DNA of 64,000 nt from Couchioplanes caeruleus. Lineage in GTDB: Bacteria; Actinomycetota; Actinomycetes; Mycobacteriales; Micromonosporaceae. The DNA lies in NCBI RefSeq assembly GCF_023499255.1, contig NZ_CP092183.1, positions 3,406,501 to 3,470,500 on the forward strand. Reading direction: 5' to 3'. Below the pieces are notes generated by a model that saw only the letters and a list, made by a program, of their open reading frames with translations, had not been told where the DNA came from and did not search any database. The position numbers and the translations under genes are program-made. Position 1 is the stretch's first letter; each line of letters begins with the position of its first letter. Shown piece by piece: positions 15,212 through 57,485 of the stretch.

Positions 15212-15254
15212 AGCCTGCCGGTCGCGCCTAAACCGCTGCTGGATCCGCGGTGGA
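15212..15254 (-). promoter_or_regulatory. SARP-type promoter array for the methyltransferase-rmlA operon
   Basis: Reading the minus strand: TCCACCG (15254-15248), TCCAGCA (15243-15237) and TTTAGGC (15232-15226) are spaced exactly 11 bp; after 8 nt comes CAGGCT (15217-15212), a NANNNT -10-like hexamer. The layout is the same as at the other cluster promoters. The third heptamer is the weakest match to TTGAGCA. It would let the methyltransferase, rmlA and the small orf be activated independently of the SARP-GT genes upstream. Confidence 0.55.
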
Positions 15255-15298
15255 GCTTCGCGGCGGCGCCTCGCGGGAAGCGCGGGCGACCGAGCGCG

Positions 15299-16411
15299 CT
15301 ACCGGCCGGCCGCGACGTCGGCGATGAGCAGGCGGGCGACCTCGGCCGCGGACGCCATGCCGTCGAGTTCGGCCGCGAGCCGGCGGGCGGCGCGCCGGGG
15401 TGGCGGGGAGTGCACGTGCCGGATCGCAGTCGCGAGTCCGCCGTCGCCCAGCTCGTCCCATCCCACCCGGCAGCCGGCCCCGAGTCCCGCCACCCGGGCG
15501 GCGTTCCACTCCTGGTCGGCGTTGTAGGGGACGACGACCGCGGGCAGGCCGTACCCGAGGGCGTGCATCAGTGAGCCGAAGCCGCCGTGGCACACCAGTG
15601 CGGTGCAGCCGGCGGCGAGCGTCCCGAGGTCGGCGAACGGGTGGACCTCGACGTGCGGGGGCGCCTTCCCGGCGATCTCGCCGGCCCGGTCCCCGGCGGC
15701 GAGGAGGCAGGGCATCCGGACGTGCGTCAGCTCCGCCAGCACCCGCTCGAGCAGGTCGCCCTGGTTGAGCAGGGTGCCGAGGGTGACCAGCAGGCGGGGT
15801 CCGGGGGGCGGTGCCGGTCCCGGCCCGCGGTCGGGCGCCCGCATCGTCGCCCAGGCGCCCGGCACCCGCTCGAAGCTGGGCGGCGTGGTGTGCACGTACC
15901 GGCTGCGGCTGAGGGCGTCGAGGTCGGCGGGCGTGGCCGGCAGCCCGGCCGCCGCCCGCAACCGCAGCAGCAGCTGTCCGCCGTCGCTCATCAGCCGGTC
16001 GCCGCTGCGGAAGAACCCGATGCCCACGGTGCTCACCGGCAGGCCGGCGAGCTCGGCCGCGAAGGAGACCCCGAACTCGGTCGGCTCCCGCAGCACCAGA
16101 TCGGGGGAGACTTCCTTCAGCACCGTGTTAGCGGCGTGAAAGGTCGCCCCGATCGTGTTCTCCGCGAACGAGTAGTCCGGGTGCCCGCCGGTGGGGCTCT
16201 CGCCGACCGTGAACGGCAGGGGCGCCCGGTGCGCGGCGAGCCAGGGCGGCCCGGCGCCCCGGAAGGGGAACCCCCGGCGTTCCACGAAGGCGCGGAACGC
16301 CGGGCTCGACACCACGACGACGTCGTGTCCCTGATCCTGCAGGGCCCGCAGGAGGCCCGACATGGGAAGGAAGTGCCCCGGGGCGGGCTGGGAGGTGCAG
16401 AGAACCCGCAC
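15299..16411 (-). CDS. Deoxysugar glycosyltransferase (GT1 family) 1
   Basis: A 370-residue GT-B enzyme of the antibiotic glycosyltransferase group, which transfers a deoxysugar from its nucleotide form to a polyketide. It starts with RVLCTSQPAPGHFLPMSGLL (the acceptor-domain loop with the conserved PGHxxP histidine). The C-terminal donor-binding motif is HGGFGSLMHALGYGLPAVVVP, here with two residues more than strictly needed, followed by NADQEWNAARV. The GTG start at 16411 is chosen because AGGA lies seven bases upstream and the protein then opens at the first beta strand. It sits 31 bp after the SARP gene, so the two are probably co-transcribed. Its donor and acceptor are unknown; two more GT genes exist in the window. 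Confidence 0.9.
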   Translation of the reverse strand: MRVLCTSQPAPGHFLPMSGLLRALQDQGHDVVVVSSPAFRAFVERRGFPFRGAGPPWLAAHRAPLPFTVGESPTGGHPDYSFAENTIGATFHAANTVLKEVSPDLVLREPTEFGVSFAAELAGLPVSTVGIGFFRSGDRLMSDGGQLLLRLRAAAGLPATPADLDALSRSRYVHTTPPSFERVPGAWATMRAPDRGPGPAPPPGPRLLVTLGTLLNQGDLLERVLAELTHVRMPCLLAAGDRAGEIAGKAPPHVEVHPFADLGTLAAGCTALVCHGGFGSLMHALGYGLPAVVVPYNADQEWNAARVAGLGAGCRVGWDELGDGGLATAIRHVHSPPPRRAARRLAAELDGMASAAEVARLLIADVAAGR

Positions 16412-16442
16412 GGTGCGTCCTATATGGAGGATCGGCGTCCGG

Positions 16443-17228
16443 TCACCGGCCGGTGCTTGCGAGCTCGGTGCTGCCCGTGAGGATCGCGTGGTGCAGTTCC
16501 TGCAATCTGGCGGACGGCTCCAGCCCGAGATCGTCGACGAGCAGGGTACGGAAACCCTGGAACGAGTCCAGCGCGGCGCGCAGACGGCCGGCGCGGAACA
16601 GGGCGACCATGTATTGCGCGCGGAAGCCCTCGTGCATCGGGTGGCGGCCGACGAGTTGGGTGAGCTCGCTGAGCACCTCGTGGAAATGCCCCAGGCGCAG
16701 TTCCGCCTCAATCCGGAGTTCGGTGATGATCAGACGGCTCTCCTCGAGCCGGCGCACATGCAATTCGAGCAGTGGCCCGGGGCGTACGTCTGTCAATGGC
16801 TCACCTCGCCAGAGACGCAATGCCCTGGTGAACGCGTCGCTCGCCTGCTCGTAGCGCTGCTCCGACATGTAGGCCTGTCCCTGCGTCACCAGGTTCTCGT
16901 AGATGCTCAAATCGTGAACCGACTCGTCCACACGCAGCATATATCCAGGCAGGCGGGTGACCAGAATGTTGCGGCCGGCCTGTCCCGCGTCGTGCAGATA
17001 CATTCCCCGAAACATTTTCCGGAGCTGCAGGACATACGTTTGCAGAGTCGTCAGTGCGCTGCGCGGCGGGTTTTCCTGCCACAATTCTTGGATGAGTGCG
17101 GTGGTGGAGACCGCGCGATTCGGTTCCAGCATGAGCATGGCGAGGACGCTACGTGGTTTCGGAGCCGTCATGATCTGTGATACTTCGACTCCATCGATCA
17201 TGAGTGGGCCCAGTACGCCGAATTGCAT
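16443..17228 (-). CDS. SARP-family pathway activator
   Basis: This 261-residue protein is a Streptomyces antibiotic regulatory protein: an OmpR-type winged helix (about 1-95, FGVLGPLMI... RSVLAMLMLEPNRAVS, TTLQTYVLQLRKMF) followed by a BTAD domain (about 100-250, ENLVTQGQAYM... RALRLWRGEPLTD). Size and layout match DnrI/ActII-ORF4 activators, which bind direct heptamer repeats spaced 11 bp upstream of target promoters. Eight such arrays are found at cluster operons in this window. ATG 17228 follows a strong GGGGGAGA site. It is the first gene of a minus-strand operon with a glycosyltransferase. Its GC content is somewhat lower than that of its neighbours. A 623-bp gap with several palindromes lies upstream. 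Confidence 0.92.
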   Translation of the reverse strand: MQFGVLGPLMIDGVEVSQIMTAPKPRSVLAMLMLEPNRAVSTTALIQELWQENPPRSALTTLQTYVLQLRKMFRGMYLHDAGQAGRNILVTRLPGYMLRVDESVHDLSIYENLVTQGQAYMSEQRYEQASDAFTRALRLWRGEPLTDVRPGPLLELHVRRLEESRLIITELRIEAELRLGHFHEVLSELTQLVGRHPMHEGFRAQYMVALFRAGRLRAALDSFQGFRTLLVDDLGLEPSARLQELHHAILTGSTELASTGR

Positions 17229-17744
17229 TGATTCTCCCCCGTGTGTTGTGCGGCGGAAACCGCACGATTTGTCCCGCCCTGTGCCGCGTCGACCGGACCG
17301 TCAGACCGGGAGTGCTCCTTCTCCGCCCGGTGGCCCGGTGGGCCCGGTGGTCGAAGGTGGCCCCTCGTCGTCGAGCGGGCCGGTGGTGACGGAAGTGGTC
17401 GTCGTCAAATTTCGCGGCTGTCGGTGATGCGACAGAGTTCCCTGGTGGAGGTCCCTCTCGTCGCCTGTGGGCGGTGGTCGGCGGACGTGGCCTTGCGGTT
17501 TTCCGCAATCTTCCTTTCCGGGTCCTGTCGGGCGTGATTCCGCAATAGGCCACGGCGTGCCGCAACCCATGGAACAACATGGCCAACGTCTATGCAAGAC
17601 CGTTCGGATTTGGGGGGTGCGGTAACCCGCAGGTCACATACCCCCCAATCCGGACGCCGGGCTACCGTCATGCTGCGGTCATGTTGCGCAAGCGTAAGAG
17701 ACTGCATTCTGTGAATCGGCTGGGCGTGGTCGGCCGGACCGCAC
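17229..17744. other. Long regulatory gap upstream of the SARP gene with repeated TGCGG/CCGCA palindromes
   Basis: No convincing gene is present; short frames lack coding bias. Three palindromes share TGCGG...CCGCA: 17249-17264 (6-nt spacer), 17493-17508 (TTGCGG-TTTT-CCGCAA, perfect) and 17618-17631 (4-nt spacer TAAC). Further CCGCAA half-sites occur at 17540 and 17560. The third palindrome lies in the loop of a longer inverted repeat at 17603-17655. The set looks like operators for a regulator acting on the SARP gene and/or the divergent operon. Confidence 0.5.
17603..17655. promoter_or_regulatory. Long imperfect inverted repeat with nested hairpin
   Basis: The left arm TTCGGATTTGGGGGGT (17603-17618) pairs with ACCCCCCAATCCGGAC (17640-17655) with one bulged base and minor mismatch. 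The loop contains a second small stem, GCGG-TAAC-CCGC. Six consecutive G:C pairs make it very stable. It could be an operator for a dimer, a transcript structure, or a terminator between the divergent units. It lies 90 bp before the SARP-type array of the plus-strand operon. Confidence 0.45.
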
Positions 17745-17798
17745 TCCACCATTCCTCCGGTCCGGCTCGAGTCTGAATCCATCCCTCTGCGCCACCGT
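17745..17798 (+). promoter_or_regulatory. SARP-type promoter array (four heptamers) for the 17.85-22.3 kb operon
   Basis: Four heptamers spaced exactly 11 bp: TCCACCA (17745), TCCGGTC (17756), TCGAGTC (17767), TCCATCC (17778). After 8 nt comes CACCGT (17793-17798), a NANNNT hexamer in the -10 position. Start codon 17852 is about 47 nt downstream of the expected transcription start. It has one more repeat than the other arrays. Confidence 0.7.
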
Positions 17799-17851
17799 TG
17801 CGGCAGGCGGGCCGACCCGCCGTGTCCCCACGAGGGAAGGAGGAAGGCCAG

Positions 17852-18634
17852 ATGGTCCAGGAAGGCTCGTCCCATCCCGTCCCTCAGCCGTTGCCCGGAC
17901 TCAAGGGCCGCGTGGCGCTCGTCATGGGCGGTACCCGCGGCGTGGGCCGCGCGGTCGCCGAGAAGCTCGCCGCCTCCGGCTGCGACGTCCTGGTGAACTA
18001 CGCGTCGTCCACGTCCGCCGCCCAGGCGCTGGTGGACGACCTCGCCGGCGAGGCCGGTACGGTCACCGCGGTCCAGGGAGATGCGCGGCGCCCGGCCACG
18101 GTGGAGCGGCTGTTCGACACCGTGCGGGAGCGCCACGGGCGGGTGGACATCGTCGTGCACTCCGTACCGTCGATGCATCCGATGCCCGCTGCCGCGCCGC
18201 GCATGAAGGACTTCCGCACCGACGTCGAGACGGCCCTGGTGCCGCTCGCCGCTCTGGCGGCGCCCGCGGCGGCGGCCATGGGCGAGGGCGGTCGCATCGT
18301 CGCCGTCTCGGCGAGCGTTGCCCGTACGGTGACGCCGAACTTCGTCAGCCTCGGTACCGCCAAGGCCGCGATGGAGGCCCTGGTGCGCTACCTGTCGGTG
18401 GAGTTCGCCGGCCGGGGGGTCACGGTCAACGCGGTATCGGCCTCCAAGCTGGACAAAGGTGCGGAGACCACGCTCCCACACGTGGCCCGGGCGCTGGCGG
18501 CACGCACACCGGCCGGCCGGCTCGCCACCCCGCGGGACATCGCCGACGTGGTGGGCCTGCTCTGCCTCCCGGAAGCACAGTGGGTCCAGGGACAGGTGAT
18601 AACCGTCGACGGCGGACTCCAGCTGACCGCCTGA
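17852..18634 (+). CDS. FabL/FabI-like SDR with Tyr-to-Phe change at the catalytic site
   Basis: A 260-residue short-chain dehydrogenase-type protein. The NAD(P)-binding region is ALVMGGTRGVGRAVAEKLAA. The family closest in pattern is the FabL-type enoyl reductase with a Tyr-x6-Lys active site (typically NYxxVGxSK). Here the stretch is NFVSLGTAK, so the tyrosine is Phe164 while Lys171 remains, and the C-terminal WVQGQVITVDGG is intact. Without the tyrosine hydroxyl, classical proton donation is lost, so the protein may bind the polyketide, act as a cyclisation aid, or use a changed mechanism. ATG 17852 follows AAGGAGG closely and begins the operon with FAD oxygenase, cyclase, methyltransferase and SnoaL-like genes. 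Its SARP-type promoter array is the longest in the window. Confidence 0.8.
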   Translation: MVQEGSSHPVPQPLPGLKGRVALVMGGTRGVGRAVAEKLAASGCDVLVNYASSTSAAQALVDDLAGEAGTVTAVQGDARRPATVERLFDTVRERHGRVDIVVHSVPSMHPMPAAAPRMKDFRTDVETALVPLAALAAPAAAAMGEGGRIVAVSASVARTVTPNFVSLGTAKAAMEALVRYLSVEFAGRGVTVNAVSASKLDKGAETTLPHVARALAARTPAGRLATPRDIADVVGLLCLPEAQWVQGQVITVDGGLQLTA

Positions 18635-18647
18635 AGGGAAGCGACTC

Positions 18648-20680: not shown

Positions 20681-20681
20681 C

Positions 20682-21764: not shown

Positions 21765-21834
21765 CCTGCGTCCCGTCTCCGGCCGCCGCGCAAGCGGCGG
21801 CCGGTCGCGTCCATCCGTGAAGGTGAGGCTGTTC

Positions 21835-22290: not shown

Positions 22291-22301
22291 ACCCACGTGC
22301 G

Positions 22302-22340: not shown

Positions 22341-22370
22341 GGTGGGCGGGACGCCTCGGGCGGGTGCGGC

Positions 22371-28919: not shown

Positions 28920-28962
28920 AGGTTGAGCGGTCCGGCTCGAGGCGGCCTCGACGCTCGGTGGG
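28920..28962 (-). promoter_or_regulatory. SARP-type promoter array for the 28.9-22.4 kb operon
   Basis: On the minus strand: CCCACCG (28962), TCGAGGC (28951-28945), TCGAGCC (28940-28934), each 11 bp apart; then 8 nt and CAACCT (28925-28920) as the -10-like hexamer. The two TCGAGN heptamers match the DnrI/ActII-ORF4 consensus very well. The start codon of the oxygenase is at 28880. Confidence 0.75.
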
Positions 28963-28973
28963 GCGCCCTGCGG

Positions 28974-29016
28974 TCCGCCCCGTCTCGAGCGTGGCTCGAG
29001 GCCCGATGGCCACGGT
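28974..29016 (+). promoter_or_regulatory. SARP-type promoter array for the 29.1-34.1 kb operon
   Basis: TCCGCCC (28974), TCGAGCG (28985) and TCGAGGC (28996) are spaced 11 bp; 8 nt later CACGGT (29011-29016) takes the -10 position. The start codon TTG lies at 29064. Together with the opposite array it makes the 183-bp gap a bidirectional SARP-controlled promoter region. Confidence 0.75.
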
Positions 29017-34173: not shown

Positions 34174-34216
34174 TCCGTTCCGCCTCGAGCCGATCCCGAG
34201 CGCACCGGACTGCAAT
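34174..34216 (+). promoter_or_regulatory. SARP-type promoter array for the aryl-acid cassette
   Basis: TCCGTTC (34174), TCGAGCC (34185), CCGAGCG (34196), spaced 11 bp, then 8 nt and TGCAAT (34211-34216). The -10 hexamer is less ideal than in the other arrays (it lacks the A at position 2). Start codon 34273 follows about 50 nt downstream. Confidence 0.7.
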
Positions 34217-43327: not shown

Positions 43328-46300
43328 GTGCCCGGCGAAGTCGTGATCGGTGTCCTCGGCGCCCTCCGGGTGCAGGTGGACGCTCGGGTGGTCCGGCTGA
43401 ACGGGGTCCGGCTGCAGACGCTCGTCGCCGTGCTGGCGCTCGACGCCGGCCGGGAGGTGACCCGCGCCGACCTGGCCGACGCGGTCTGGGGCGACCGGGC
43501 ACCGTCCGCCCCCGACAACGCCCTGCAGGCGCTGGTGTCCCGGCTGCGGCGGGCCGTGCCGGAGCTGGTCGTCGACTCCCGGCCCACCGGATACCGGGCC
43601 CTGATCCGGCCCGACCAGGTCGACGCCCACCGGTTCGAGACGCAGGTGGACGCCGCCCGGGAGATCCCGGACCCGGAGCGCCGCGCCGCCGCGCTGCGGG
43701 AGGCGCTGGACCTCTGGCGGGGCGCGGCCCTGCCCGGCCTCGCCGACGCCCCGGTCCTGCGCGCCCACGCGGCCCGGCTCAGCGAGCTGCGCCGCTCGGC
43801 CACGGAGGAGCGGATCGCGGCCGACATCGCCGACGGCCGCGGCGCCGAGGTCGTTCCCGAGCTGGAAGGGCTGATCGCCCAGTTCCCGCTGCGCGAGACG
43901 CTGCGGCTGTATCTCATGCAGGCCCTGCGTGCCGCCGGGCGGCACGCCGACGCCCTCTCCGCCTACGAGGACGCCCGCACCGAGCTCGCCGAGCAGCTCG
44001 GCGCGGACCCTTCGCCGACCCTCCAGCGCACGCACCTCGCGCTGCTGCGCGACGGCTTCGCGCCGCCGGATCCGCCCGCCCCCGCGGGCCCGCCGCCACC
44101 CGGCCCGGCGCCGCGTGGCCGGCTGCCGGTCCCGCTGACGCCGATGGTGGGGCGGGACGACGACGTACGCGCGCTGGTGCGGATGATCACCGGCAACCGG
44201 CTCGTCACCGTGGTGGGCGCGGGCGGTATGGGCAAGACCCGGCTGGCGGTGGAGGCCGGGCGGACCGTCGTCGGCGCCGAGGCCGACGGGGGCGTACTGG
44301 TCGACCTGGGCGCGGTGGGCGACGCCGGCGACGTGTCCCGCGCGATCCTCGCCGCGTGCGGTGCCGGCGACGGCGGCCTGCTGTTCGCCCCGGCCGGCCC
44401 GGCCGCCCGGCCCAGCGTCGCCGACCGCCTGATCAGCGTGGTCTCCCGGCGTCCGCTGCTGCTCATCCTCGACAACTGCGAGCACCTGCTGCCGGCCGTC
44501 GCCCGGGAGGCGGAGGCCCTGCTGGCGAGCTGCCCGGGCCTGCGCGTGCTGGCCACGAGCCGGCAGCCGCTGGGCGTGCGCGGCGAGGTGCTGTTCCCGC
44601 TCGCCGGTCTCGCCACCCCGGCGCCCGGCGCACCGGTCACCACGGAGAGCCCGGCGGTGCGGCTGTTCGTCGAACGCGGGCGCGCGGTGCGGCCCGCGTT
44701 CACCGTCGACGAGCGTACGGCCGAGCAGGTCGGTGCCGTCTGCCGGGCGCTGGACGGCCTGCCGCTGGCGCTGGAGCTGGCCGCCGTGCGGCTGCGTTCG
44801 CTGTCGGTCGCCCAGCTGGAGGCGCGGTTGCAGGACCGGTTCGACGCCCTGTTCGCCGGACCGGACACCGTGGCCGAGCGGCAGCGCACCCTGCGGACGG
44901 TGGTGGACTGGAGCTGGGACCTCCTGGACCTCCCCGAGCGGGTGCTGGCCCGCCGGATGGCGGTCTTCGCCGGGCCGGTCGACGGCGACGTCGTACGGCG
45001 GGTCTGCGCGGACCTCGAGCTGCCCGACGACATCGAGGCGGCCCAGGTCGACCGCCTCCTCGCCGCGCTGGTGGACAAGTCGATGGTGCAGGTCGACGCC
45101 GAGCGGGAGCCGCCACGGTTCCGGATGCTGAACACGATCCGGCTGTACGCGGTCGAGCGGCTGGCCGAGGCGGGGGAGACCGGGCACCTGCGGTTGCGGC
45201 ACGCGCGCGTGCTGGCGGCGATCGCCGAGGAGCTCGAGCCGCAGCTGCGCCGGGACGGTCAGCTGCACGCGCTGGCGTACCTGTCGTCCTACGTGGATGA
45301 CGTGAACGCCGCCCTGCGGTGGTCGATCGACGAGGCGCCGCCCGAGGTGTCCGTACGGCTGGTGGCCATGCTGGAGTGGTTCTGGCTGCTCAGCGGCCGC
45401 CGCGCCGAGGGTCTGGAGTGGACCGGCCGGGCGCTGGCGCTGGACGGGTCGGCCGTACCGGTGCACCGCGCGTTGCTCTGCGCGGTCGGTGCCCTGGTGT
45501 ACGGCGCGATCCTGGGCGACCCGCAGGGTCTCGCCTGCCTGCGTGAGGCGCTGGAGCTGGCCGGCCGGATCGGCGACCGGCCGGGCGCCGGGCACCCGCT
45601 GGTGGTGCTGCTGGGCGCGATGACGTCGCTGCTGACCGGGGACAGCGGGGTCATGCTGGCGGAGCTGCGGCACCACGGCGGGCACGCCGACCCGTGGGTC
45701 CGGGCGCAGAGCCGCATGCTGGCCGGCCGTACGTTGATGAACCTGGGCCGCCCGGAGGAGGCGCGCGCCGAGCTCGCGGCGTCGTTGGCGGAGTTCCGCA
45801 GGATCGGTGAGCGGCTGGGCCGGGCGCAGACCCTGTCCGCGCTGGCCGAGCTGGACGGGGCGAGCGGCGAGCACGCCGGCGCGGCCGCCGCCCTGCGTGA
45901 GGCGCTGCAGGCCGCCGGCGAGCTGGGCGCCGCCGAGGATCTCGCCATGCTGCGGGTCCGGCTCGGCGCGGTGCACGCCCGGTCGGGTGACGGCCCGGCG
46001 GCGCGCCGGGAGCTGGACACCGCCCTGGCGGAGGCCGACCGGCTTGGCCTGGGGGAGACCGTGGGAGCGGCCCATCACGTGCTCGGTGACCTCGCCCGCT
46101 GGGAGGGGCGGTACGCGGACTCCCGTGACCTGCTCGGCCGCGCCCTCGGCGAACTGCGCGAGCACGGGCGCGGCGTCGGGCTGGTCCCCGCGGTCCTGCT
46201 CAGCCAGGGGTACCTCGCGGTCGCGGAAGGACGGCTGCAGGAGGCCACCGACCTGTGCCGGGACGCGTACGACCTGGCCCGGCGGGGACGCGACGCCCAT

Positions 46301-46543
46301 GCCACGTCCCGGGTCGCCGTGCTGGCCGCCGACATCGCCCTCGCCCGCGCCGACGTGGGCCGGTCCGCCGCCCTGCTGACCGCCGCGGTGTCGATGCGCG
46401 GTCAGCACATCGCCGGCGACCCGGACGAGACCCGCCTCGACGACGCCGTCCGCGACCGGCGGCCGGGGCTGGCACCCGACGGCGCCCCGGTGGACGGGGC
46501 CGCCATCGAGGCGCTGCTGTCGCCGGTGCTGCAGGGCAGCTGA
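43328..46543 (+). CDS. Large AfsR/SARP-type regulator (BTAD, NB-ARC ATPase, TPR)
   Basis: A 1071-residue regulator: an N-terminal OmpR-type DNA-binding domain (about 1-95, VIGVLGALRVQVDARVV... QALVSRLRRAVP), BTAD (about 100-245, LRLYLMQALRAAGRHADAL), an NB-ARC ATPase with Walker A VVGAGGMGKTRLA (about 296-308) and LLLILDNCEHLLP, and a long TPR-like alpha-helical C-terminus. This is the AfsR layout: ATP binding and possibly phosphorylation or ligand contacts modulate DNA binding. GTG 43328 is taken as start because the fold begins here and a CATACT hexamer (43316-43321) lies seven bases before it, suggesting a leaderless transcript; no ribosome binding site is visible. GTG 43343 is the alternative. 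It is the second BTAD regulator of the cluster. Confidence 0.88.
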   Translation: MPGEVVIGVLGALRVQVDARVVRLNGVRLQTLVAVLALDAGREVTRADLADAVWGDRAPSAPDNALQALVSRLRRAVPELVVDSRPTGYRALIRPDQVDAHRFETQVDAAREIPDPERRAAALREALDLWRGAALPGLADAPVLRAHAARLSELRRSATEERIAADIADGRGAEVVPELEGLIAQFPLRETLRLYLMQALRAAGRHADALSAYEDARTELAEQLGADPSPTLQRTHLALLRDGFAPPDPPAPAGPPPPGPAPRGRLPVPLTPMVGRDDDVRALVRMITGNRLVTVVGAGGMGKTRLAVEAGRTVVGAEADGGVLVDLGAVGDAGDVSRAILAACGAGDGGLLFAPAGPAARPSVADRLISVVSRRPLLLILDNCEHLLPAVAREAEALLASCPGLRVLATSRQPLGVRGEVLFPLAGLATPAPGAPVTTESPAVRLFVERGRAVRPAFTVDERTAEQVGAVCRALDGLPLALELAAVRLRSLSVAQLEARLQDRFDALFAGPDTVAERQRTLRTVVDWSWDLLDLPERVLARRMAVFAGPVDGDVVRRVCADLELPDDIEAAQVDRLLAALVDKSMVQVDAEREPPRFRMLNTIRLYAVERLAEAGETGHLRLRHARVLAAIAEELEPQLRRDGQLHALAYLSSYVDDVNAALRWSIDEAPPEVSVRLVAMLEWFWLLSGRRAEGLEWTGRALALDGSAVPVHRALLCAVGALVYGAILGDPQGLACLREALELAGRIGDRPGAGHPLVVLLGAMTSLLTGDSGVMLAELRHHGGHADPWVRAQSRMLAGRTLMNLGRPEEARAELAASLAEFRRIGERLGRAQTLSALAELDGASGEHAGAAAALREALQAAGELGAAEDLAMLRVRLGAVHARSGDGPAARRELDTALAEADRLGLGETVGAAHHVLGDLARWEGRYADSRDLLGRALGELREHGRGVGLVPAVLLSQGYLAVAEGRLQEATDLCRDAYDLARRGRDAHATSRVAVLAADIALARADVGRSAALLTAAVSMRGQHIAGDPDETRLDDAVRDRRPGLAPDGAPVDGAAIEALLSPVLQGS

Positions 46544-46545: not shown

Positions 46546-46563
46546 CCGGCTGTCGTCAGCCGG
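46546..46563. terminator. Short hairpin between convergent regulator and GT genes
   Basis: CCGGCTG (46546-46552), loop TCGT, CAGCCGG (46557-46563) pair perfectly over 7 bp and cover the stop codon of the minus-strand glycosyltransferase. Only 12 bp separate the two convergent genes, so this is the only possible shared terminator. Confidence 0.5.
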
Positions 46564-47704
46564 TGACCGGCGCGCCGGCCAGCTCGGCCAAGGTGCGTAC
46601 GGTCCGGACCGGGTCGGGCTGGCGGTGCATCTCGTCGCGCAGCCGTTCCGTGGCGGTGCGGTATCCGGGGTCGGTGATGACCTGCCGGAGGACGTCCGCG
46701 ATGACCTCGGGCTCCCGGTGCTCGCCGTCCAGGTCGAGCTCCCGGCCCGCGCCGCACGCCGCCACCCGCTCGCCGTGCGCCGCGTACGACGGGTTGGGGT
46801 GGGCCAGGACGAGCTGGGGAACCCCGTGGTGCACGGCGGTCAGGCAGGTGCCCGAGCCGCCGTGGTGGATCAGCGCGGCGGCGTCGTCCAGCAGGAGGGT
46901 GATCGGGACGGGGCCCTCGGCGCGTACCCCGGGCGGCACCGCGGCGCCGGGCGGCGGCTTGCTGGTGATGACCGGCTCGATGCCGTCGATCGTCGTGAGC
47001 GCCAGCATGAAGCGGTCCCACAGGACCGGGTCGGCGAGCATCGACGTCTCCGCCCCGAACGAGACCACGACCCGGCGGCGCGGCGCGGGCCGCAGCGCCC
47101 AGTCCGGCACGGCGCCGGAGCCGTTGAACGGGACGAAGCGGATCGGCTGCGCCGGGTCGGCGTCCGGGCACTGGAGGGTGGGCGGGCACGGGTCGAGCAC
47201 CAGGGCGGGCGCCGGGATGCCGTCGCGGGCGCCGTGCCGCTCCGCGATGTCGGCCAGGGCGGTGGCCGCGAGCGGCAGCGACCGGCTGCTGACCCGGTCG
47301 GCGCCCCACCGGTGGACCACCACGGGGACGCCGAGGACACCGCCGACGATGAGCCCGCTGAACTCGATCGGGTCGCACAGGATGAGGTCGGGCCGCCAGT
47401 CGCGCGCCACGGCGAGATGCCGGCCGACCACGGCGCCGACCCGGTGCCGCCACCGTTCCGCCATGGCGTCCCAGCCCATCAGGTGCGCGGCGCGGCCCGC
47501 GGCGGGATCGGCGGACGCCGCGGCCGGCCGGTGCGGCGGCGGGTCCGGCACGGCGACGCCGGACAGGCCCGCCAGGCCGGCGCGGGCCACGAACCCCGCG
47601 CTGCCACTGACCAGCACCTCGTGGCCGGCGGCGCGCAGGGCCCAGGCCAGCGGTGCCATCGGCATCAGATGCGCGGGGACGACCCCGGCAATGAGCACCC
47701 TCAC
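46556..47704 (-). CDS. Deoxysugar glycosyltransferase (GT1 family) 2
   Basis: A 382-residue GT-B enzyme: the N-terminal domain opens with RVLIAGVVPAHLMPMAPLAW, and the donor-binding site is HHGGSGTCLTAVHHGVPQLV followed by NPSYAAHGERVAACGAG. SFGAETSMLADP is the family strand-loop region near the cleft. It differs clearly from GT 1 and is more like GT 3. It is the last gene of the exporter operon, 12 bp after the permease, which suggests it acts late, perhaps adding the outer sugar. Donor and acceptor unknown. It converges with the large regulator gene. Confidence 0.9.
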   Translation of the reverse strand: MRVLIAGVVPAHLMPMAPLAWALRAAGHEVLVSGSAGFVARAGLAGLSGVAVPDPPPHRPAAASADPAAGRAAHLMGWDAMAERWRHRVGAVVGRHLAVARDWRPDLILCDPIEFSGLIVGGVLGVPVVVHRWGADRVSSRSLPLAATALADIAERHGARDGIPAPALVLDPCPPTLQCPDADPAQPIRFVPFNGSGAVPDWALRPAPRRRVVVSFGAETSMLADPVLWDRFMLALTTIDGIEPVITSKPPPGAAVPPGVRAEGPVPITLLLDDAAALIHHGGSGTCLTAVHHGVPQLVLAHPNPSYAAHGERVAACGAGRELDLDGEHREPEVIADVLRQVITDPGYRTATERLRDEMHRQPDPVRTVRTLAELAGAPVTG

Positions 47705-47716
47705 GACGGTCCTCTC

Positions 47717-48550
47717 TCAGCGTTCCCGGCGGTACGCCATCAGGGCCAGCGGCGCGAAGACCACGGTGAGCACCGCGCAGGAGATGAGCGTCTGCGTCAC
47801 CGGGCCGCTGACCGGTCCGCCGACCAGCATTCCGCGGATGGCATCGGCGAGACTCGAGACCGGGTTGACTTTGACCACCGCCTGCAGCCAGCCGGGCATG
47901 GTCTCCACCCGCACGTACGCGCCGCTGAGGAAGGTGAGCGGCAGCATCAGCCCGAAGGCCAGCGCCTGCACGCTCTCCGGCGAGGAGGCTAGCAGTCCCA
48001 GGTAGACCGCTGCCCAGGAGAAGGCGAGCATGAAGAGCAGCAGGAGCAGGCACACCGGCGCCAGCATGAACCAGTGGGTGTGTACCCGGAACCCGAGCGC
48101 GGTGCCGGCGACCACCAGGATCAGCACCGACCACAGCAGCATCACGTAGTCGGCGAGCATCCGGCCGAGCAGGGGCGCCACCCGTGAGATCGGCAGGCTC
48201 CGCAGGCGGTCGAAGATCCCGGTGGTGACGTCGGTGTTGATGCCGATCGCGGTACGCGCGCTGACCAGCACCGCCGACTGCACCATCAGGCCCGGCACGA
48301 CGTACAGCATGTACGCCTGCCGTGAGCCGGCCAGCTGGCCGGCGAGCACGAACGCGAAGAGGAAGACGAACATCAGCGGCTGGATGCCGACCTCGACGAG
48401 CTGCTCGGGATTGCGTTTGATCTGGACGAGCTGCCGCCACGCCACGGTGGCGCTCTGGCGCACCGCCCGCGCGGGGCCCGCCCGGCGGGGGCGGGGCGCC
48501 TCGGCGGCCTCCGGGGCCTCGTGGTCCGATGCGGTGGCGATCGAGGTCAT
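47717..48550 (-). CDS. ABC-2 type drug exporter permease (DrrB-like)
   Basis: A 277-residue membrane protein with a charged N-terminus and about six hydrophobic segments: PLMFVFLFAFVLAGQL, MLYVVPGLMVQSAVLV, LLWSVLILVVAGTALGF, LLLLLFMLAFSWAAVYLGLL, ALAFGLMLPLTFLSG, and ISCAVLTVVFAPLALMAY. The FLSGAYVRVETMPGWLQAV segment before the last helix is typical of DrrB/ABC-2 permeases of antibiotic exporters. It pairs with the ATPase gene upstream through an ATGA overlap. The system probably exports the glycosylated product and gives self-resistance. Confidence 0.92.
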   Translation of the reverse strand: MTSIATASDHEAPEAAEAPRPRRAGPARAVRQSATVAWRQLVQIKRNPEQLVEVGIQPLMFVFLFAFVLAGQLAGSRQAYMLYVVPGLMVQSAVLVSARTAIGINTDVTTGIFDRLRSLPISRVAPLLGRMLADYVMLLWSVLILVVAGTALGFRVHTHWFMLAPVCLLLLLFMLAFSWAAVYLGLLASSPESVQALAFGLMLPLTFLSGAYVRVETMPGWLQAVVKVNPVSSLADAIRGMLVGGPVSGPVTQTLISCAVLTVVFAPLALMAYRRER

Positions 48551-49479
48551 GCGGCCACTCCTTGGCTCGTCAGCTGCTTGAACACCTCGTCGAGGCTCGG
48601 CTGGCGGATGCCGATCTCGGCGACGCCGATGCCGGCCGCGTCGAGCCGCCGCACCATCTCCGGCAGGACGCCGGTGTCCGCCGCCGGTGCGGTGATGACG
48701 GCGTTGTCGACCTCGTGCCGGCCGGCCACCTCGGTGACGATGAGGGCCACCCGGTGCAGGTCCGCCGGATCGGCGGGCTGCACCTGCAGCGTCTGGCCGC
48801 CCACCCGGCGTTTGAGCTCGGTCGGCGTGCCGTGGGCGACGGCCCGGCCCCGGTCGATCACCACGATGTCGTCGGCGAGCTGGTCGGCTTCCTCGAGGTA
48901 CTGCGTGGTCAGCAGGACGGTCACGCCCCGCCGCACCTCGCCGCGGATGCTCTCCCACAGCTGCTCGCGGGCGCGCGGGTCGAGGCCCGTCGTCGGCTCG
49001 TCGAGGAAGACCACCCGGGGGCGGCCGACCAGGCAGGCGGACAGGTCGAGCCGCCGGCGCATGCCACCGGAGTACGTCCGGGCGGGGCGGTCGGCGGCGT
49101 CGGACAGCGAGAAGCGCTCCAGCAGACCGCGGGCGGTCTCGCGCGCCTCGGACCGGGACTGGCCGATCAGGCGGGCCAGGAACACCAGGTTCTCCACCCC
49201 GGTGAGGTTCTCGTCCACCGCGGCGAACTGACCGGTCAGCCCGATCAGGCCGCGGACCGCCTCGACGTCGTGCCGCGGATCGTGGCCGAGGATGCGTACC
49301 GCACCGGCGTCCGGGCGCAGCAGGGTGGCGAGGATGCGCACCATGGTGGTCTTGCCGGCCCCGTTCGGGCCGAGCAGGCCGAGCACCGTACCGGCGCCGA
49401 CCTCGAGGTCGACGCCGTCCAGCGCGGTGACGGCGCCGAACCGTTTGACGAGCCCCTCGGCCCGGATGGCATGTTTCAC
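48547..49479 (-). CDS. ABC drug exporter ATPase (DrrA-like)
   Basis: A 310-residue ATPase with Walker A GPNGAGKTTM, Q-loop GLTGQFAAVDENLTG, signature YSGGMRRRLD, Walker B VVFLDEPTTGLD and H-loop region LTTQYLEEADQL. The tail (about 225-310) is the regulatory domain typical of DrrA and ends with LDEVFKQLTSQ. Together with the permease it forms the antibiotic efflux pump. The GTG start at 49479 is set by homology-type reasoning, since KHAIRAEGLVKRFG begins the nucleotide-binding fold. Its upstream region holds a variant 11-bp repeat array at 49511-49553. Confidence 0.93.
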   Translation of the reverse strand: MKHAIRAEGLVKRFGAVTALDGVDLEVGAGTVLGLLGPNGAGKTTMVRILATLLRPDAGAVRILGHDPRHDVEAVRGLIGLTGQFAAVDENLTGVENLVFLARLIGQSRSEARETARGLLERFSLSDAADRPARTYSGGMRRRLDLSACLVGRPRVVFLDEPTTGLDPRAREQLWESIRGEVRRGVTVLLTTQYLEEADQLADDIVVIDRGRAVAHGTPTELKRRVGGQTLQVQPADPADLHRVALIVTEVAGRHEVDNAVITAPAADTGVLPEMVRRLDAAGIGVAEIGIRQPSLDEVFKQLTSQGVAA

Positions 49480-49560: not shown

Positions 49561-49603
49561 TCCATCGACGGTCCAGTTCCGCTTGAGCAGGTCGGCCAAG
49601 ACT
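49561..49603 (+). promoter_or_regulatory. SARP-type promoter array for the GT 3/ketoreductase/3-dehydrase operon
   Basis: TCCATCG (49561), TCCAGTT (49572) and TTGAGCA (49583) at exact 11-bp steps; 8 nt later AAGACT (49598-49603). Start codon 49663 is about 54 nt downstream of the expected transcription start. Order and type of heptamers agree with the other plus-strand arrays. Confidence 0.65.
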
Positions 49604-51812: not shown

Positions 51813-51815
51813 TTG

Positions 51816-53114: not shown

Positions 53115-53118
53115 GCCG

Positions 53119-53208
53119 CCCGGCCCGGGGCACGCCGTGGTGCCCCGGGCCGGGACATGCCGCCGCAAATACATCGGGGGTGTGCTGCCGGCCGGCAGCA
53201 CACCCCCG
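53119..53208. terminator. Two tandem hairpins between convergent operons
   Basis: The first hairpin has 15-bp arms (53119-53133 and 53140-53154) with a 6-nt loop GCCGTG. The second is a perfect 34-nt palindrome (53175-53208) centred on GGCC. They fill the gap between the 3-dehydrase stop and the convergent monooxygenase stop and should end both transcripts. Confidence 0.8.
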
Positions 53209-53217
53209 AGGCCGTCG

Positions 53218-54366
53218 TCAGGCGATGGAGCCGCCGCCGAGGACGTGGTTCGCCCAGCCGTCCGCGCTCTGGTCGGGCTGCAGGGCGCTGTGCCCGGCCA
53301 TGCAGTGCACGTCCCGCCAGACCCGCTGGATCGGGTTGGACTCCGCCTGCCCGTGGGTGCCGCTCACCCGGAACAGCCGGTTGGCCGCGGCGACCAGCAG
53401 GTCGGCCGCGGCCGCGAAGTCGCGGGTGCTGCGTACCGGCAGCTCGGGGGTGACCTCCGCCAGGTCGGCGGCCGCGGCGGCCCGCGCGATGAGCATGGTG
53501 GCCGTGTCCACCTCGGTGCCGGCGGTGGAGACGGCGAATCGCACGCTGGGCCGGTCCACGGTCCGGCTCCGGTTCGCCTCCCGCCGGCCCGCCGTCCAGC
53601 GCGCCCACTCGTGCAGCGCCTCCCGGACGGCGCCCACCCCGGGCGCGACGAACAGGATGCCGTTGAACAGCTTGTACGGGATGCGGTGGCAGGGCGGGTC
53701 CGCCGCGGAACCGGACCCGTTCAGCACGGCGGCGTGGGTGAACGAGCGGTGCCGCGGCACGAACGCGTCCGCCACCACCACGCTGTTGCTGCCCGTACCG
53801 CGCAGGCCGACGTTGCGCCAGGTCTCGCGGACCGTGTAGTCGCCGCGGGGGAGCACGAAGTGCCGGAACACCGGTTCGCCGGGGCTGTGGTCGAGCCCGC
53901 CGACCGTGGTCCACCGGGCGAAGTCCACGCCGCTGGCGTACGGCCACTCGCCGGACAGCCGCCACCCGCCGGGGACCGCCTCGACGCGCCCGGCGGGCAG
54001 GACCGAGCCGGCGAGGTGCACGTCCGGCCCGTCGCCCCAGATCTCCTGCTGGCCCTCCGCCGGCAGGTTCGCGCACATCCGGCCCAGGGCCAGCATCACC
54101 CCGCCGGTCCAGGCGGCCGACATGCAGCCCTCGCCGACGATCGACAGGGCCTGCGCGGCGTCGGCGACACCGCCGGCCGTGCCGCCCCAGCGGGCCGGGA
54201 CGAAGTGGCGGGCGAAGCCGGCGGCGGTCAGCGCCTCGGCGGCCGCGGGTTCGAGCCGGTACCGGCGGTCGGCCTCGGCGGCGTGCTCCCGGGCGACGGC
54301 CCGGGCGGACCTGGCCCCGTCGAGCAGCGCCGCGGACTCGCGTACCGGATGGGTGGAGACGGACAT
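53218..54366 (-). CDS. Two-component flavin-dependent monooxygenase (acyl-CoA dehydrogenase fold)
   Basis: A 382-residue protein of the ACAD-fold, group D flavin monooxygenase class (HpaB/HsaA/ActVA-ORF5 type), which uses free FMNH2 or FADH2 to hydroxylate aromatic rings. The N-terminal helical part includes AAALTAAGFARHFVPARWGG-type sequence; the middle beta domain reads LSGEWPYASGVDFARW, and the C-terminal helices contain RLFRVSGTHGQAESNPIQR, the conserved flavin contact. A flavin reductase gene lies 22 bp upstream in the same operon as the matching partner. It could also be a sugar N- or C-oxidase of the nitrososynthase kind, but no aminosugar genes are present, so polyketide oxidation is favoured. 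Confidence 0.85.
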   Translation of the reverse strand: MSVSTHPVRESAALLDGARSARAVAREHAAEADRRYRLEPAAAEALTAAGFARHFVPARWGGTAGGVADAAQALSIVGEGCMSAAWTGGVMLALGRMCANLPAEGQQEIWGDGPDVHLAGSVLPAGRVEAVPGGWRLSGEWPYASGVDFARWTTVGGLDHSPGEPVFRHFVLPRGDYTVRETWRNVGLRGTGSNSVVVADAFVPRHRSFTHAAVLNGSGSAADPPCHRIPYKLFNGILFVAPGVGAVREALHEWARWTAGRREANRSRTVDRPSVRFAVSTAGTEVDTATMLIARAAAAADLAEVTPELPVRSTRDFAAAADLLVAAANRLFRVSGTHGQAESNPIQRVWRDVHCMAGHSALQPDQSADGWANHVLGGGSIA

Positions 54367-54388
54367 GCAGTCACCTCGCGTAAGAGTG

Positions 54389-54883
54389 CTAGAGCGCCCG
54401 GAAGTCGCGGGCGAAGTAGACCAGCGGTGTGCCGTCGAAGGTCTCGGCGGCGTGCACCAGGCCGATCAGGATGATGTGGTCGCCGGCCGAGATGCGGCGC
54501 ACGAGCCGGCACTCCAGCCGGCCGAGCGTTCCCGGCAGCAGCGGTACCCCGCCGAGGCCGCGGTCCACGGCCAGACCGGCGAACTTGTCGATGCCCTTGG
54601 TGGCGAACCGGACCGCCACGTCCGCCTGGTCGTCGCGGAGCAGGTGGATCGCCATGGCCGGGGCGGTCGCGAACGCCGGCAGGCACTGTGAGCCGCGGTC
54701 CAGGCACACCAGCACCGACGGCGGCGCCATGGACAGTGAGGCGAACGCGGTGGCCGTGAAGCCGCGATGCCCGCCGCCGGCGTCGACGGTGGTCACCACG
54801 GCGACCCCGCTCGGCCATCGGGACAGGCACTCGCGGAGTCCGTCGGCGTCCACCGGCGACTGGGGCAGACTCGTATGCGTCAT
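54389..54883 (-). CDS. Flavin reductase (partner of the two-component monooxygenase)
   Basis: A 164-residue member of the flavin reductase-like (HpaC/ActVB) family: LRECLSRWPSGVAVVTTV, the FMN-binding GFTATAFASLSMAPPSVLVCL and the C-terminal GDHIILIGLVHAAE with the conserved GDH motif. It supplies reduced flavin with NAD(P)H to the neighbouring oxygenase (53218-54366). AGGAG lies seven bases before ATG 54883. Its start overlaps the stop codon of the 3-ketoreductase by one base (TGATG). Confidence 0.93.
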   Translation of the reverse strand: MTHTSLPQSPVDADGLRECLSRWPSGVAVVTTVDAGGGHRGFTATAFASLSMAPPSVLVCLDRGSQCLPAFATAPAMAIHLLRDDQADVAVRFATKGIDKFAGLAVDRGLGGVPLLPGTLGRLECRLVRRISAGDHIILIGLVHAAETFDGTPLVYFARDFRAL

Positions 54884-55863
54884 CACGCTGCTCCTGACGT
54901 GGTCACCACGGCCCGGTCCCGGACGGCCTCCACGAGCTCGGCCTGCCGCAACGATGCCCGGACCAGGTCGGCCGGGTCCTGCTCGCCGCGGACCGCGGCG
55001 GCGAACCGGCCGACCAGGCGGCCGAGCTGGTCGTCCGCGGGCAGCGTGAGCTCCTGTATCCGGTTCTGGTGCTCGATGCCGAGCACCGGGGCGAAGCCCG
55101 CGGGCGGTGTGAAGGCCCGGCGTACGGTCATCCGGCCCGCGCTTCCCCACAGCACGTAGGCCGAGCGGTAGGAGTGCGTGAAGCCGAAGCGGATCTGGGC
55201 GCTGCGTCCCTGCGGGGTCGTCAGGACGGCGGCGCCCGCGACGTCCACCCCGGAGACCGGGTCGTGCTCCAGCGTGGCCCCCGCGACGGTAAGGTCGGGA
55301 CCGAGGAAGAGCTGGGCCACGCGCAGCGGGTACACCCCGGCGTCCAGCAGGGCGCCGCCGCCGAGCTCGGGCCGGTAGCGGATGTCGGAGGAGGGCAGCG
55401 GGGGGAACGCGAAGTCGGCGTCCAGCGCCCGCAACGTGCCGATCTCGCCGGCCTGCAGCCGCCGCTGCACCTCGGCGTGCTGGCTGTGGTGGACGAACGC
55501 GAAGCACTCCAGCAGCACCAGCCCGGCGGACCGGGCCAGCTCCACCAGCCGGTGGGCGTCCTTGGCGGTGGTCGTCAGCGGCTTCTCGGCCAGGACGTGC
55601 TTGCCGGCGTGCAGCGCCCGCTCGACCCAGACGGCGTGCAGGGCGGGCGGCAGCGGGACGTACACCGCGTCGATGTCCGGCCGCTCCAGCAGCCGCTCGT
55701 ACCCGTGCACGGGTGTGGCGCCGAAGCGCTGCGCCGCCGCCTCCGCCTTCGCCGGGTCCCGGCTCGCGATCGCGGTGACCCGGACGCCGGCGTCGGCGGC
55801 CAGCGCCGGTACGGTGCGCCGCAGGGCGATGCTGCTGCACCCGAGGACTCCGACCCGAAGCAT
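54883..55863 (-). CDS. NDP-hexose 3-ketoreductase (Gfo/Idh/MocA family)
   Basis: A 326-residue oxidoreductase that reduces the 3-keto group formed after 2,3-dehydration, giving 2,6-dideoxysugars. The NAD(P)-binding motif is RVGVLGCSSIALRRTVPAL, the catalytic lysine lies in EKPLTTTAKDAHRLV, and GGGALLDAGVYPLR is the conserved histidine/tyrosine region of the family. It directly follows the 2,3-dehydratase gene, its usual partner (TylCVI/TylCX2 kind). GGAGG precedes ATG 55863 by about four bases. Confidence 0.93.
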   Translation of the reverse strand: MLRVGVLGCSSIALRRTVPALAADAGVRVTAIASRDPAKAEAAAQRFGATPVHGYERLLERPDIDAVYVPLPPALHAVWVERALHAGKHVLAEKPLTTTAKDAHRLVELARSAGLVLLECFAFVHHSQHAEVQRRLQAGEIGTLRALDADFAFPPLPSSDIRYRPELGGGALLDAGVYPLRVAQLFLGPDLTVAGATLEHDPVSGVDVAGAAVLTTPQGRSAQIRFGFTHSYRSAYVLWGSAGRMTVRRAFTPPAGFAPVLGIEHQNRIQELTLPADDQLGRLVGRFAAAVRGEQDPADLVRASLRQAELVEAVRDRAVVTTSGAA

Positions 55864-55874
55864 GCCGCCTCCGC

Positions 55875-57326
55875 TCACCACAGCGAGTGCAGGCAGGCGA
55901 CGAGACTGCGCGCCTGCACGTTCACGTAGTAGCTGTGCTGGAGCAGGGCGGTGAGCTGGGCGACCGTGAGCCACCTGTAGTCCGGCGGGACGGCGTCCGG
56001 GAGGTCGTCGCCGACGTCCACGATCACGTACCGGTTCTCCGCGTGGTAGAACCGGCCGCCCTCCTCCGACTGCACCGTGTCGAACATGATCCGGTCCGCC
56101 GGTACGGTCCCCAGGTAGTCGAGGAACGGCGGCTGGGCGTCGTCCGGCAGGCCCTCGTAGTTCACCGGCATGCACTGCACCGTCGGCGCCAGCTCGGCCA
56201 CGTCCAGGTAGCCGCCCTCGATCCGGGCGTGCATCAACACGTGCAGGACACCGCCGATCGACTTGGTGAGCAGCGCCGCCACGCCCACCCCGCGCGGGAC
56301 GAGCAGCGGCTGCGACCAGCTGTGCACCTCCCGGCTGCCCGCGGTGACCTGCGCCGCGATGATCGAGAAGTGCTTGCCGTCGGCGTGGCTGATCTCGTGC
56401 TCGTCGCGCCGCCAGCCGCGCACCTGGCGCAGCGGGATCGGGCTCACCCGGCGATGGTGGCGCGCCTTGCTCTCGACGAACCAGCTCAGCAGCTCCCGCA
56501 TCGTGTGCCGGGCGGCCCCGCCGGGAACCAGCGAGCGGTGCAACGCCCGGCGGAACGCGCTGTCGCCGTGCCGGTCGCCTGCCCCGGCGGCCGGCCGGTC
56601 GAACGGGATGCAGGAGAGCACCGTACGGGCGTCCATGTTGACCATGTTGTCCTGGCGCAGCATCCGGTGGAGCTCACCGATCGTCATCCAGCGGTAGTCC
56701 TCGTGCGGCGGTACGTCCTCGTCCACCTCGACGACCACGTTGCGGTTGCGCTTGCCCAGGAACCAGGCGCCCTGCTCGGACTGCAGCACGTCCACCAGCA
56801 CCCGGCTGCGGCCCGGATCCGTGAAGTACTCGAGGTAGCGGGTGTGCGTACCGCCGTGTACCCGGGTGTAGTTGCTCCGGGTGGCCTGCACGGTCGGTGA
56901 CAGCTGCAACGTGTTGATGTTGCCCGGTTCCATCTTCGCCTGGACCAGGCAGTGCAGGACCCCGTCGATCTCCTTGGTGATCATGCCGAGCGTGCCGATC
57001 TCCGGCTGGTTGATGATCGGTTGCTGCCACTGGCCGACGGGACCGTAGTCGGTCTCCACCTCGATGCCCTCGATCGTGAAGAACCGGCCCGAACGGTGCG
57101 CCAGGTTGCCGGTGGTGGGCTCGAAGAACCAGTCGCGCATGCCGAGGAACGGGATCCGTTCGACCTCGAAGCGGTGCGCCGCCCGGCGCTCCTCCAGCCA
57201 CCGCTCGACCCGGCCGGGCCTCGACGGGTCCCCGGTCGCGACCCCGGAGCCGGTGAACCGGGCCGGGATGGCCGTGTCCTCGGTGGTCAGCGGGGCAGGG
57301 AGAACCGTCGTGGAAGTGTCCACCAT
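55875..57326 (-). CDS. NDP-hexose 2,3-dehydratase
   Basis: A 483-residue enzyme built of two related halves: FFTIEGIEVETDYGPVGQW with ITKEIDGVLHCLVQAKMEPG in the first, and HFSIIAAQVTAGSREVHSW with TKSIGGVLHVLMHARIEGG in the second. This duplicated Nudix-like form is specific for NDP-4-keto-6-deoxyglucose 2,3-dehydratases (TylCX3, SpnO), which start 2-deoxygenation. ATG 57326 is preceded by GAAGGTGG. It heads the minus operon that also holds 3-ketoreductase, flavin reductase and monooxygenase; an SARP-type array lies upstream at 57366-57408. Confidence 0.95.
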   Translation of the reverse strand: MVDTSTTVLPAPLTTEDTAIPARFTGSGVATGDPSRPGRVERWLEERRAAHRFEVERIPFLGMRDWFFEPTTGNLAHRSGRFFTIEGIEVETDYGPVGQWQQPIINQPEIGTLGMITKEIDGVLHCLVQAKMEPGNINTLQLSPTVQATRSNYTRVHGGTHTRYLEYFTDPGRSRVLVDVLQSEQGAWFLGKRNRNVVVEVDEDVPPHEDYRWMTIGELHRMLRQDNMVNMDARTVLSCIPFDRPAAGAGDRHGDSAFRRALHRSLVPGGAARHTMRELLSWFVESKARHHRRVSPIPLRQVRGWRRDEHEISHADGKHFSIIAAQVTAGSREVHSWSQPLLVPRGVGVAALLTKSIGGVLHVLMHARIEGGYLDVAELAPTVQCMPVNYEGLPDDAQPPFLDYLGTVPADRIMFDTVQSEEGGRFYHAENRYVIVDVGDDLPDAVPPDYRWLTVAQLTALLQHSYYVNVQARSLVACLHSLW

Positions 57327-57365
57327 CGCGGGCCACCTTCGTCGAGGAGGGCGAGTGTCGCAGCA

Positions 57366-57408
57366 AGACTCGGCCCGGGTGCTCGAATCCCGCTTGAGCT
57401 GCTCTCGG
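57366..57408 (-). promoter_or_regulatory. SARP-type promoter array for the 57.3-53.2 kb operon
   Basis: On the minus strand CCGAGAG (57408), TCAAGCG (57397) and TCGAGCA (57386) at 11-bp steps, then 8 nt and GAGTCT (57371-57366). TCGAGC is the exact DnrI-type core. The 2,3-dehydratase start codon is 40 nt further on. Confidence 0.7.
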
Positions 57409-57442
57409 CTCGGCGCCGCCGGCCGGGCGGCGGCCCGAGCGC

Positions 57443-57485
57443 TCCGGTCTCTGTCGAGGACGCCTTGAGCACCGGCCGGAATGCT
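57443..57485 (+). promoter_or_regulatory. SARP-type promoter array for the minimal PKS operon
   Basis: TCCGGTC (57443), TCGAGGA (57454) and TTGAGCA (57465) at 11-bp steps, then 8 nt and AATGCT (57480-57485). The first and third heptamers recur identically at other cluster promoters (TCCGGTC at 17756, TTGAGCA at 49583). The KS-alpha start codon is about 147 nt downstream, so this transcript has a long leader. Confidence 0.75.

Follow-up and report, generated by a model that had tools for sequence, protein, structure and literature searches.

The window analysed here, a 64,000-nucleotide stretch of Couchioplanes caeruleus DNA (bases 3406501–3470500 of an 8.42-Mb single-contig genome; positions are given in window coordinates), contains a polyketide synthase (PKS) gene cluster in which arrays of short direct repeats stand ahead of eight gene runs, together with two genes for Streptomyces antibiotic regulatory protein (SARP)-type regulators. 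Among the ketosynthase alpha (KS-alpha) matches listed, the best relative was from Streptomyces sp. Tue6028 (79% identity), a polyketomycin producer (PMC5318452), and tblastn of the cluster proteins against 100 kb of that genome (G067) identified orthologues of most cluster genes at 49–85% identity, including those for the minimal PKS, iterative PKS, ligases, cyclases, and sugar biosynthesis. The cluster is orthologous to the Tue6028 polyketomycin cluster and is of polyketomycin type, the product itself being predicted. Gene starts were taken from a home-made caller and operon extents were inferred from strand and spacing; the heads of SDR_B and FADmo_D were approximate when heads were scored, and their positions from the sequence are 17852 and 29064. 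The features are as follows, with each array given as its repeats, the gap, the hexamer, and the unit behind it.

Array A, 15212..15254, minus strand: TCCACCG/TCCAGCA/TTTAGGC, 8 nt, CAGGCT; O-methyltransferase (OMT_A, start 15162), rmlA-type NTP transferase, DUF6059.
Small SARP, 16443..17228, minus strand: winged-helix and BTAD domains, 261 aa; proposed reader of the arrays.
Array B, 17745..17798, plus strand: four repeats, the last TCCATCC, 8 nt, CACCGT; short-chain dehydrogenase/reductase (SDR_B, start 17852), FAD monooxygenase, cyclase, O-methyltransferase, SnoaL-like protein.
Array C, 28920..28962, minus strand: CCCACCG/TCGAGGC/TCGAGCC, 8 nt, CAACCT; FAD monooxygenase (FADmo_C, start 28880), SDR, cyclase, AMP ligase, ABM monooxygenase, C-methyltransferase.
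Array D, divergent from C, 28974..29016, plus strand: TCCGCCC/TCGAGCG/TCGAGGC, 8 nt, CACGGT; FAD monooxygenase (FADmo_D, 29064), rmlC, epimerase-type sugar gene, multicopper oxidase.
Array E, 34174..34216, plus strand: TCCGTTC/TCGAGCC/CCGAGCG, 8 nt, TGCAAT (non-canonical); methyltransferase (OMT_E), KSIII-like protein, iterative type I PKS, AMP ligase, and probably the large SARP.
Large SARP, 43328..46543, plus strand: BTAD and TPR domains; rival reader or downstream target, absent from the initial annotation.
Array F, 49561..49603, plus strand: TCCATCG/TCCAGTT/TTGAGCA, 8 nt, AAGACT; glycosyltransferase GT3 (49663), epimerase-type sugar gene, DegT-family enzyme.
Array G, 57366..57408, minus strand: CCGAGAG/TCAAGCG/TCGAGCA, 8 nt, GAGTCT; NDP-hexose 2,3-dehydratase (57326), MocA-type oxidoreductase, flavin reductase, acyl-CoA dehydrogenase-like flavoprotein.
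Array H, divergent from G, 57443..57485, plus strand: TCCGGTC/TCGAGGA/TTGAGCA, 8 nt, AATGCT; KS-alpha (57632), KS-beta, acyl carrier protein, acetyl-CoA carboxylase, biotin carrier, biotin carboxylase.

SARPs such as DnrI and ActII-ORF4 bind heptameric repeats spaced by 11 bp, with TCGAG as the word, 8 bp upstream of the −10 element. All eight arrays were found at the coordinates and on the strands given in the initial annotation and with the geometry it described, namely heptamers at an 11-bp pitch (four in array B, three in the other seven) followed by an 8-nt gap and a hexamer that fits NANNNT in seven of the eight, the exception being the TGCAAT of array E, which lacks the conserved A. The arrays are therefore direct repeats with a spacing permitted by the SARP operator rule (11 or 22 bp), and when a ninth array from the same locus is included, NANNNT follows the 3′ repeat at 8 nt in all but array E (8/9). 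The repeat order reported for the plus strand, TCC, then TCGAG, then a T.GAG word, held loosely: array E ends in CCGAG, array F has TCCAG in the middle, and array B ends in TCCAT. The hexamers lie 39–59 nt from the start codon for arrays A–G, 146 nt for KS-alpha, and 16 nt for rmlB behind the ninth array, distances that would allow transcription to start just downstream of the hexamer. The leader upstream of KS-alpha (57486–57631) is 146 nt long, versus 55 nt in Tue6028 and in S. cylindrosporus (G069).

The arrays were compared with control DNA totaling 700 kb of this genome and comprising 35 stretches of 20 kb (∼1.4 million positions): 33 of 36 planned stretches and two chosen around other SARP genes (L035 and L038); control stretch L032 also contains a SARP gene. 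When three TCGAG words at an 11-bp pitch were scored out of 15 with nothing fitted, nine window positions reached at least 12, versus 1.46 expected from the control DNA, and 28 reached at least 11, versus 12.26 expected; the 28 include every array except that at 15254. The count at the higher threshold is inflated by clumping, because the nine positions fall in just three intergenic regions, at 28.9, 57.4, and 17.8 kb. Only four correspond to array registers; the others read the same words in a shifted register or on the opposite strand. In leave-one-out tests with a matrix of heptamers and hexamer, five of the eight held-out arrays scored above every control position, and 28962 was exceeded by a single control position. 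The two weak arrays, 57408 (G) and 34174 (E), were exceeded by 27 and 35, respectively; taken alone they are not exceptional, as would be expected if a GC-rich genome simply yielded such words by chance to be picked out by eye. With heptamers alone, four of eight beat all controls and 57408 was exceeded by 84, and the spacers alone gave no signal in the leave-one-out test against control DNA.

A search of the complete 8.42 Mb with the pattern TCCR-TCGAG-TYGAG-A...T, allowing up to two mismatches, returned 12 matches: seven window arrays (57408 absent), one new match in the same locus, and four elsewhere, of which two lie within coding ORFs and two in sequence without a called coding ORF. All five matches with at most one mismatch are in this locus, and the reversed pattern gave none genome-wide. 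The initial annotation had named an equal density of the pattern in other DNA as the outcome that would speak against it; the whole-genome count, with eight of 12 matches in one locus, shows no such density. The same near-confinement (8/12 at up to two mismatches, 5/5 at up to one) argues against a genome-wide SARP, such as an AfsR homolog, reading the arrays as part of a global regulon that the cluster taps; the genome does have 17 BTAD matches, two of them in the window, from which such a regulator could come, but the AfsR operator word is given as CGTT(T/C)ATCGNN (PMC10972967), not TCGAG, and we consider this explanation very unlikely. Because the genome pattern was built from the arrays themselves, the out-of-sample evidence, namely the ninth array, a matrix trained on relatives, and the spacing test, weighs most.

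The ninth array was found past the end of the window by both the window matrix and the genome pattern, as an out-of-sample prediction.

Ninth array, 68811..68853 (L003:4811–4853), plus strand, 4.8 kb past the window end: TCCACGC/TCGAGGT/GCGAGCC, 8 nt, TACCTT; dTDP-glucose 4,6-dehydratase (rmlB, 68870–69859).

It stands 16 nt ahead of the called start of rmlB (TIGR01181, 462 bits versus a cut-off of 365), and we infer that translation from an in-frame ATG at 68861 would leave the rmlB message nearly leaderless. The window holds an rmlA-type gene, rmlC, the 2,3-dehydratase, and further sugar genes; no 4,6-dehydratase above the cut-off occurs within it, and the genome has two, rmlB being one.

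Arrays are also present at the same promoters in related clusters. Among 354 genomes of the same family, KS-alpha candidates (five scored per genome, E ≤ 1e-200) never exceeded 76% identity; since the family offered no closer cluster, a short-range footprint was impossible. In the 100 kb from Tue6028, all nine array matches scoring at least 14.5 lie within the cluster, at the heads of OMT_A, SDR_B, FADmo_C, FADmo_D, OMT_E, GT3, KS-alpha, metK, and the ABC transporter unit; in S. cylindrosporus, arrays head FADmo_C, FADmo_D, SDR_B, OMT_A, KS-alpha, and the KSIII-like gene. Array A has a counterpart before OMT_A in Tue6028, G069, and locus L065; arrays B (before SDR_B), C, and D have counterparts in Tue6028 and G069, array E before OMT_E in Tue6028 and L065, and array F before GT3 in Tue6028. 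Array H has a counterpart with AATGCT or AATACT before KS-alpha in L061, L063, and L065. The 2,3-dehydratase of G069/L063 is preceded by a weaker array (12.9) in the same register as array G, as the alignment with L063 confirmed. The divergent partner of KS-alpha is OMT_E in Tue6028 and L065, and the 2,3-dehydratase in the window and G069. Across six pairs aligned with Tue6028 (A, B, C, D, F, and H, with E and G left out), core positions agreed at 96/126 and other positions at 62/132, a comparison in which score-based selection of arrays favors the core.

The relatives-trained matrix, built from 18 arrays in G067, G069, and L065 and leaving out a G069 match outside its cluster (87196) and an overlapping L065 register (8015), placed seven of the nine arrays of this locus above every control position, with 57408 exceeded by three and 34174 by 38. 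In the window and 100-kb flanks, the next window-trained scores after the nine arrays were 17.3 at 96585, 16.6 at 108456, and 16.2 at 104 (minus strand), and the next relatives-trained score after the nine and one further candidate was 16.5 at 108456. That candidate, 47826–47868 on the minus strand (20.0 with the relatives-trained matrix), lies in the coding region of an ABC permease, 128 nt before GT2, and was set aside as a probable coincidence because it partly reflects coding conservation common to Tue6028 and G069, both of which have no array there.

The spacing rule was then examined in the best 80 KS-alpha loci among the matches listed, some of them near-identical, where arrays were found by TCGAG words only (at least 12/15, overlaps merged) without −10 information. 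NANNNT occurred at a spacer of 8 in 79 of 158 arrays, versus no more than nine at each of the other spacers between 0 and 25, and in control DNA it occurred there in 3/134 at threshold 11 and 0/16 at threshold 12. The 79 arrays derive from 33 of the 80 loci; removing the six nearest loci left 67/138, and the 59 other permutations of the TCGAG word gave at most three. Within 400 bp upstream of KS-alpha, 22 of the 80 loci had a matrix score of at least 16, versus 1.04 expected, and 23 had a score of at least 12. At 148 sites identified independently of the distal repeat, this repeat began with TC in 70, versus 7.5 expected, a weaker signal than that of the other repeats; thus, the order in which a weak TCC-type word leads and the TCGAG words adjoin the −10 generalizes beyond the window. 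A fourth repeat, upstream of the third, was weakly indicated (16/148 starting TC versus 7.5 expected). An apparent depletion of T at the first −10 position disappeared on comparison with all NANNNT words (T at 6% at arrays versus 2.4% generally). Chance selection, despite the clumped word count and the unexceptional arrays E and G, is jointly contradicted by the leave-one-out tests, whole-genome count, spacing test, relatives-trained matrix, and word permutations, and has next to no probability.

The small SARP matches PF00486 (39.7 bits) and PF03704 (137.9 bits) and nothing further, as in the small SARP type, whose members combine an N-terminal OmpR-type winged helix with a BTAD domain in ∼260–300 aa. 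It aligns with the SARP domain of AfsR and with EmbR; its gene head has no array of its own. Orthologs at 60–64% identity are present in the polyketomycin-type loci G067, G069, and L065, and at 43–48% in two more distant clusters, G070 (48%) and G072 (43%), both of which have arrays. The large SARP, acting alone or with the small one, is a less likely reader of the arrays, on balance an improbable one: it sits in the cluster and is conserved (54% in Tue6028 and 53% in G069), but no separate match to it was found in 80 kb each of G070 and G072, where arrays are present. Its recognition helix also differs. At the positions of the AfsR DNA contacts Q48, T88, and R92 (PMC10936776), nine small SARPs (that of the window and eight chosen from related loci) have Lys, Thr, and Gln (once Lys), whereas both large SARPs in the alignment carry Arg, Ala, and Arg. 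Furthermore, the large SARP follows ligase_E, the final ligase gene of the array E run, after a gap of 112 nt, and its Tue6028 ortholog follows metK-PfkB-C3MT, another array-led run; this position at the end of array-led runs suggests that, if co-transcribed with them, it is a target of array control rather than the reader.

The evidence is best explained by the arrays being SARP-type operator-promoters, one per operon at the heads of nearly all structural operons, with the small SARP as their most likely reader, as the initial annotation had proposed, and at least nine units switched on together; we assign this reading a probability of roughly 0.78. SARP protomers would occupy neighboring direct repeats spaced by one helical turn, with 8 nt between the final repeat and a poor −10 hexamer, and the bound SARP would recruit RNA polymerase to promoters without a usable −35 box. 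The small SARP would thereby turn on the eight window units and rmlB together, probably metK/PfkB as well, with the large SARP, as the last gene of the array E operon, among its downstream targets. Binding, activation, and the choice of SARP are here deduced from sequence.

Several observations weigh against this reading. The SARP-GT unit (15299–17228) and the ABC/GT unit (46556–49479) have no array (best scores −0.4 and 3.5), and the Tue6028 ABC unit does carry one (17.9). Array E has no canonical −10 in its register, nor one repeat further on. In G069, no array precedes GT3 (best 5.8), and one array match (87196, 15.1) lies outside the cluster. In the KS-alpha sample, the 400 bp ahead of KS-alpha contain no array of at least 12 in 57 of 80 loci; the grammar is thus frequent in such clusters without being universal. 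Because the large SARP is conserved as well, co-occurrence alone does not separate the two SARPs, and the argument from contact residues rests on AfsR, whose operator word differs.

The initial annotation had further held that the array set defines the limits of the cluster from inside, which was not supported, both because the cluster very likely continues beyond the arrays of the window and because the SARP-GT and ABC-GT units lie inside it without arrays. To the right, metK and a PfkB gene adjoin rmlB and are divergent from it; as their orthologs belong to the Tue6028 cluster, the cluster very likely reaches ∼5.9 kb past the window end (66543–69859, L003:2543–5859). The head of metK carries a degraded array, TCCACCG/TCGAGTC, 8 nt, and GATAGT with the first repeat lost, which scored 7.5 with a training set that included its Tue6028 ortholog, itself preceded by a full array (16.6); it is probably a tenth array of the locus. 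To the left, a multicopper oxidase (MCO), a small neighboring ORF, and a TetR gene (10076–12812) have orthologs beside metK in Tue6028 (57, 55, and 48%, respectively), which suggests that they belong to the cluster at one end as metK, PfkB, and rmlB would at the other, and that the left limit is probably not marked by the arrays either. The head of MCO, scored with the matrix, has no array; heads without arrays are those of SARP-GT1, the large SARP, ABC-ABC-GT2, MMPL, and MCO.

The array set is real and kept in relatives, and its grammar is known in principle: the 8-bp distance to the −10, repeats 11 or 22 bp apart, three-repeat operators, and cluster-wide SARP promoter sets have been published (PMC10936776, PMC10972967, PMC4393881, PMC5930380), along with the cryo-EM mechanism of AfsR (PMC10936776). 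In the oxytetracycline (OtcR) and chlortetracycline (Ctc11) clusters, one cluster-situated SARP is likewise associated with 11-bp-spaced repeats between divergent genes of the cluster, the last repeat lying 8 bp from the −10; OtcR activated five promoters in an E. coli reporter, whereas the arrays here are known by sequence only (PMC4393881). The oxytetracycline operators also differ in having another word and two 9-nt repeats in a tetracycline cluster, versus nine arrays of mostly three repeats here. DnrI and ActII-ORF4 are likewise small SARPs of type II PKS clusters with three heptameric repeats at some promoters, but for other products and listed as protein-binding sites, whereas the sites here are putative (PMC10972967). 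AfsR at afsS shares the SARP fold, a poor −10 (CACTGT), 11-bp repeats, and docking of sigma region 4 (PMC10936776; PDB 8hvr, 8jke, and 8k60); it differs in having two repeats of another word and in being a large SARP with NOD and TPR domains, and the small SARP here has Gln in place of its DNA-facing R92. The Tue6028 cluster shares arrays at the same gene heads but has a rearranged gene order, and the rmlA and rmlB of this locus sit elsewhere. GT1, laccase, DUF6059, and MMPL had no separate match in its 100 kb (E ≤ 1e-15, after removal of weaker matches that overlapped). A nitro-sugar interpretation of the genes for acyl-CoA dehydrogenase, flavin reductase, and DegT was dropped because all three have orthologs in the Tue6028 cluster. 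No description of polyketomycin regulation was found in the literature searched, which excluded most subscription journals.

The arrays would provide a cluster-wide, testable set of operators for a polyketomycin-type pathway and would assign the distant rmlB, and probably metK/PfkB, to it. More tentatively, the array may be a portable regulon tag, in which operators are kept while the genes behind them are exchanged and the small SARP commands the large SARP in a feed-forward loop. KS-alpha, for instance, retains its array with either divergent partner, OMT_E or the 2,3-dehydratase. The rmlA and rmlB genes (37 and 45% identity to their Tue6028 matches by tblastn) look like another lineage than those of Tue6028; on the tag reading, these genes of other lineage were placed behind arrays, rmlB having been recruited beyond a stretch with the array-less MMPL gene. 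The quantified rule of TCGAG repeats and an 8-nt gap could also delimit SARP regulons and guide the choice of activators for over-expression in silent clusters. Four KS-alpha loci (L123, L128, L115, and L080) each have six array matches at a matrix score of at least 15 and are candidate SARP regulons in other genomes.

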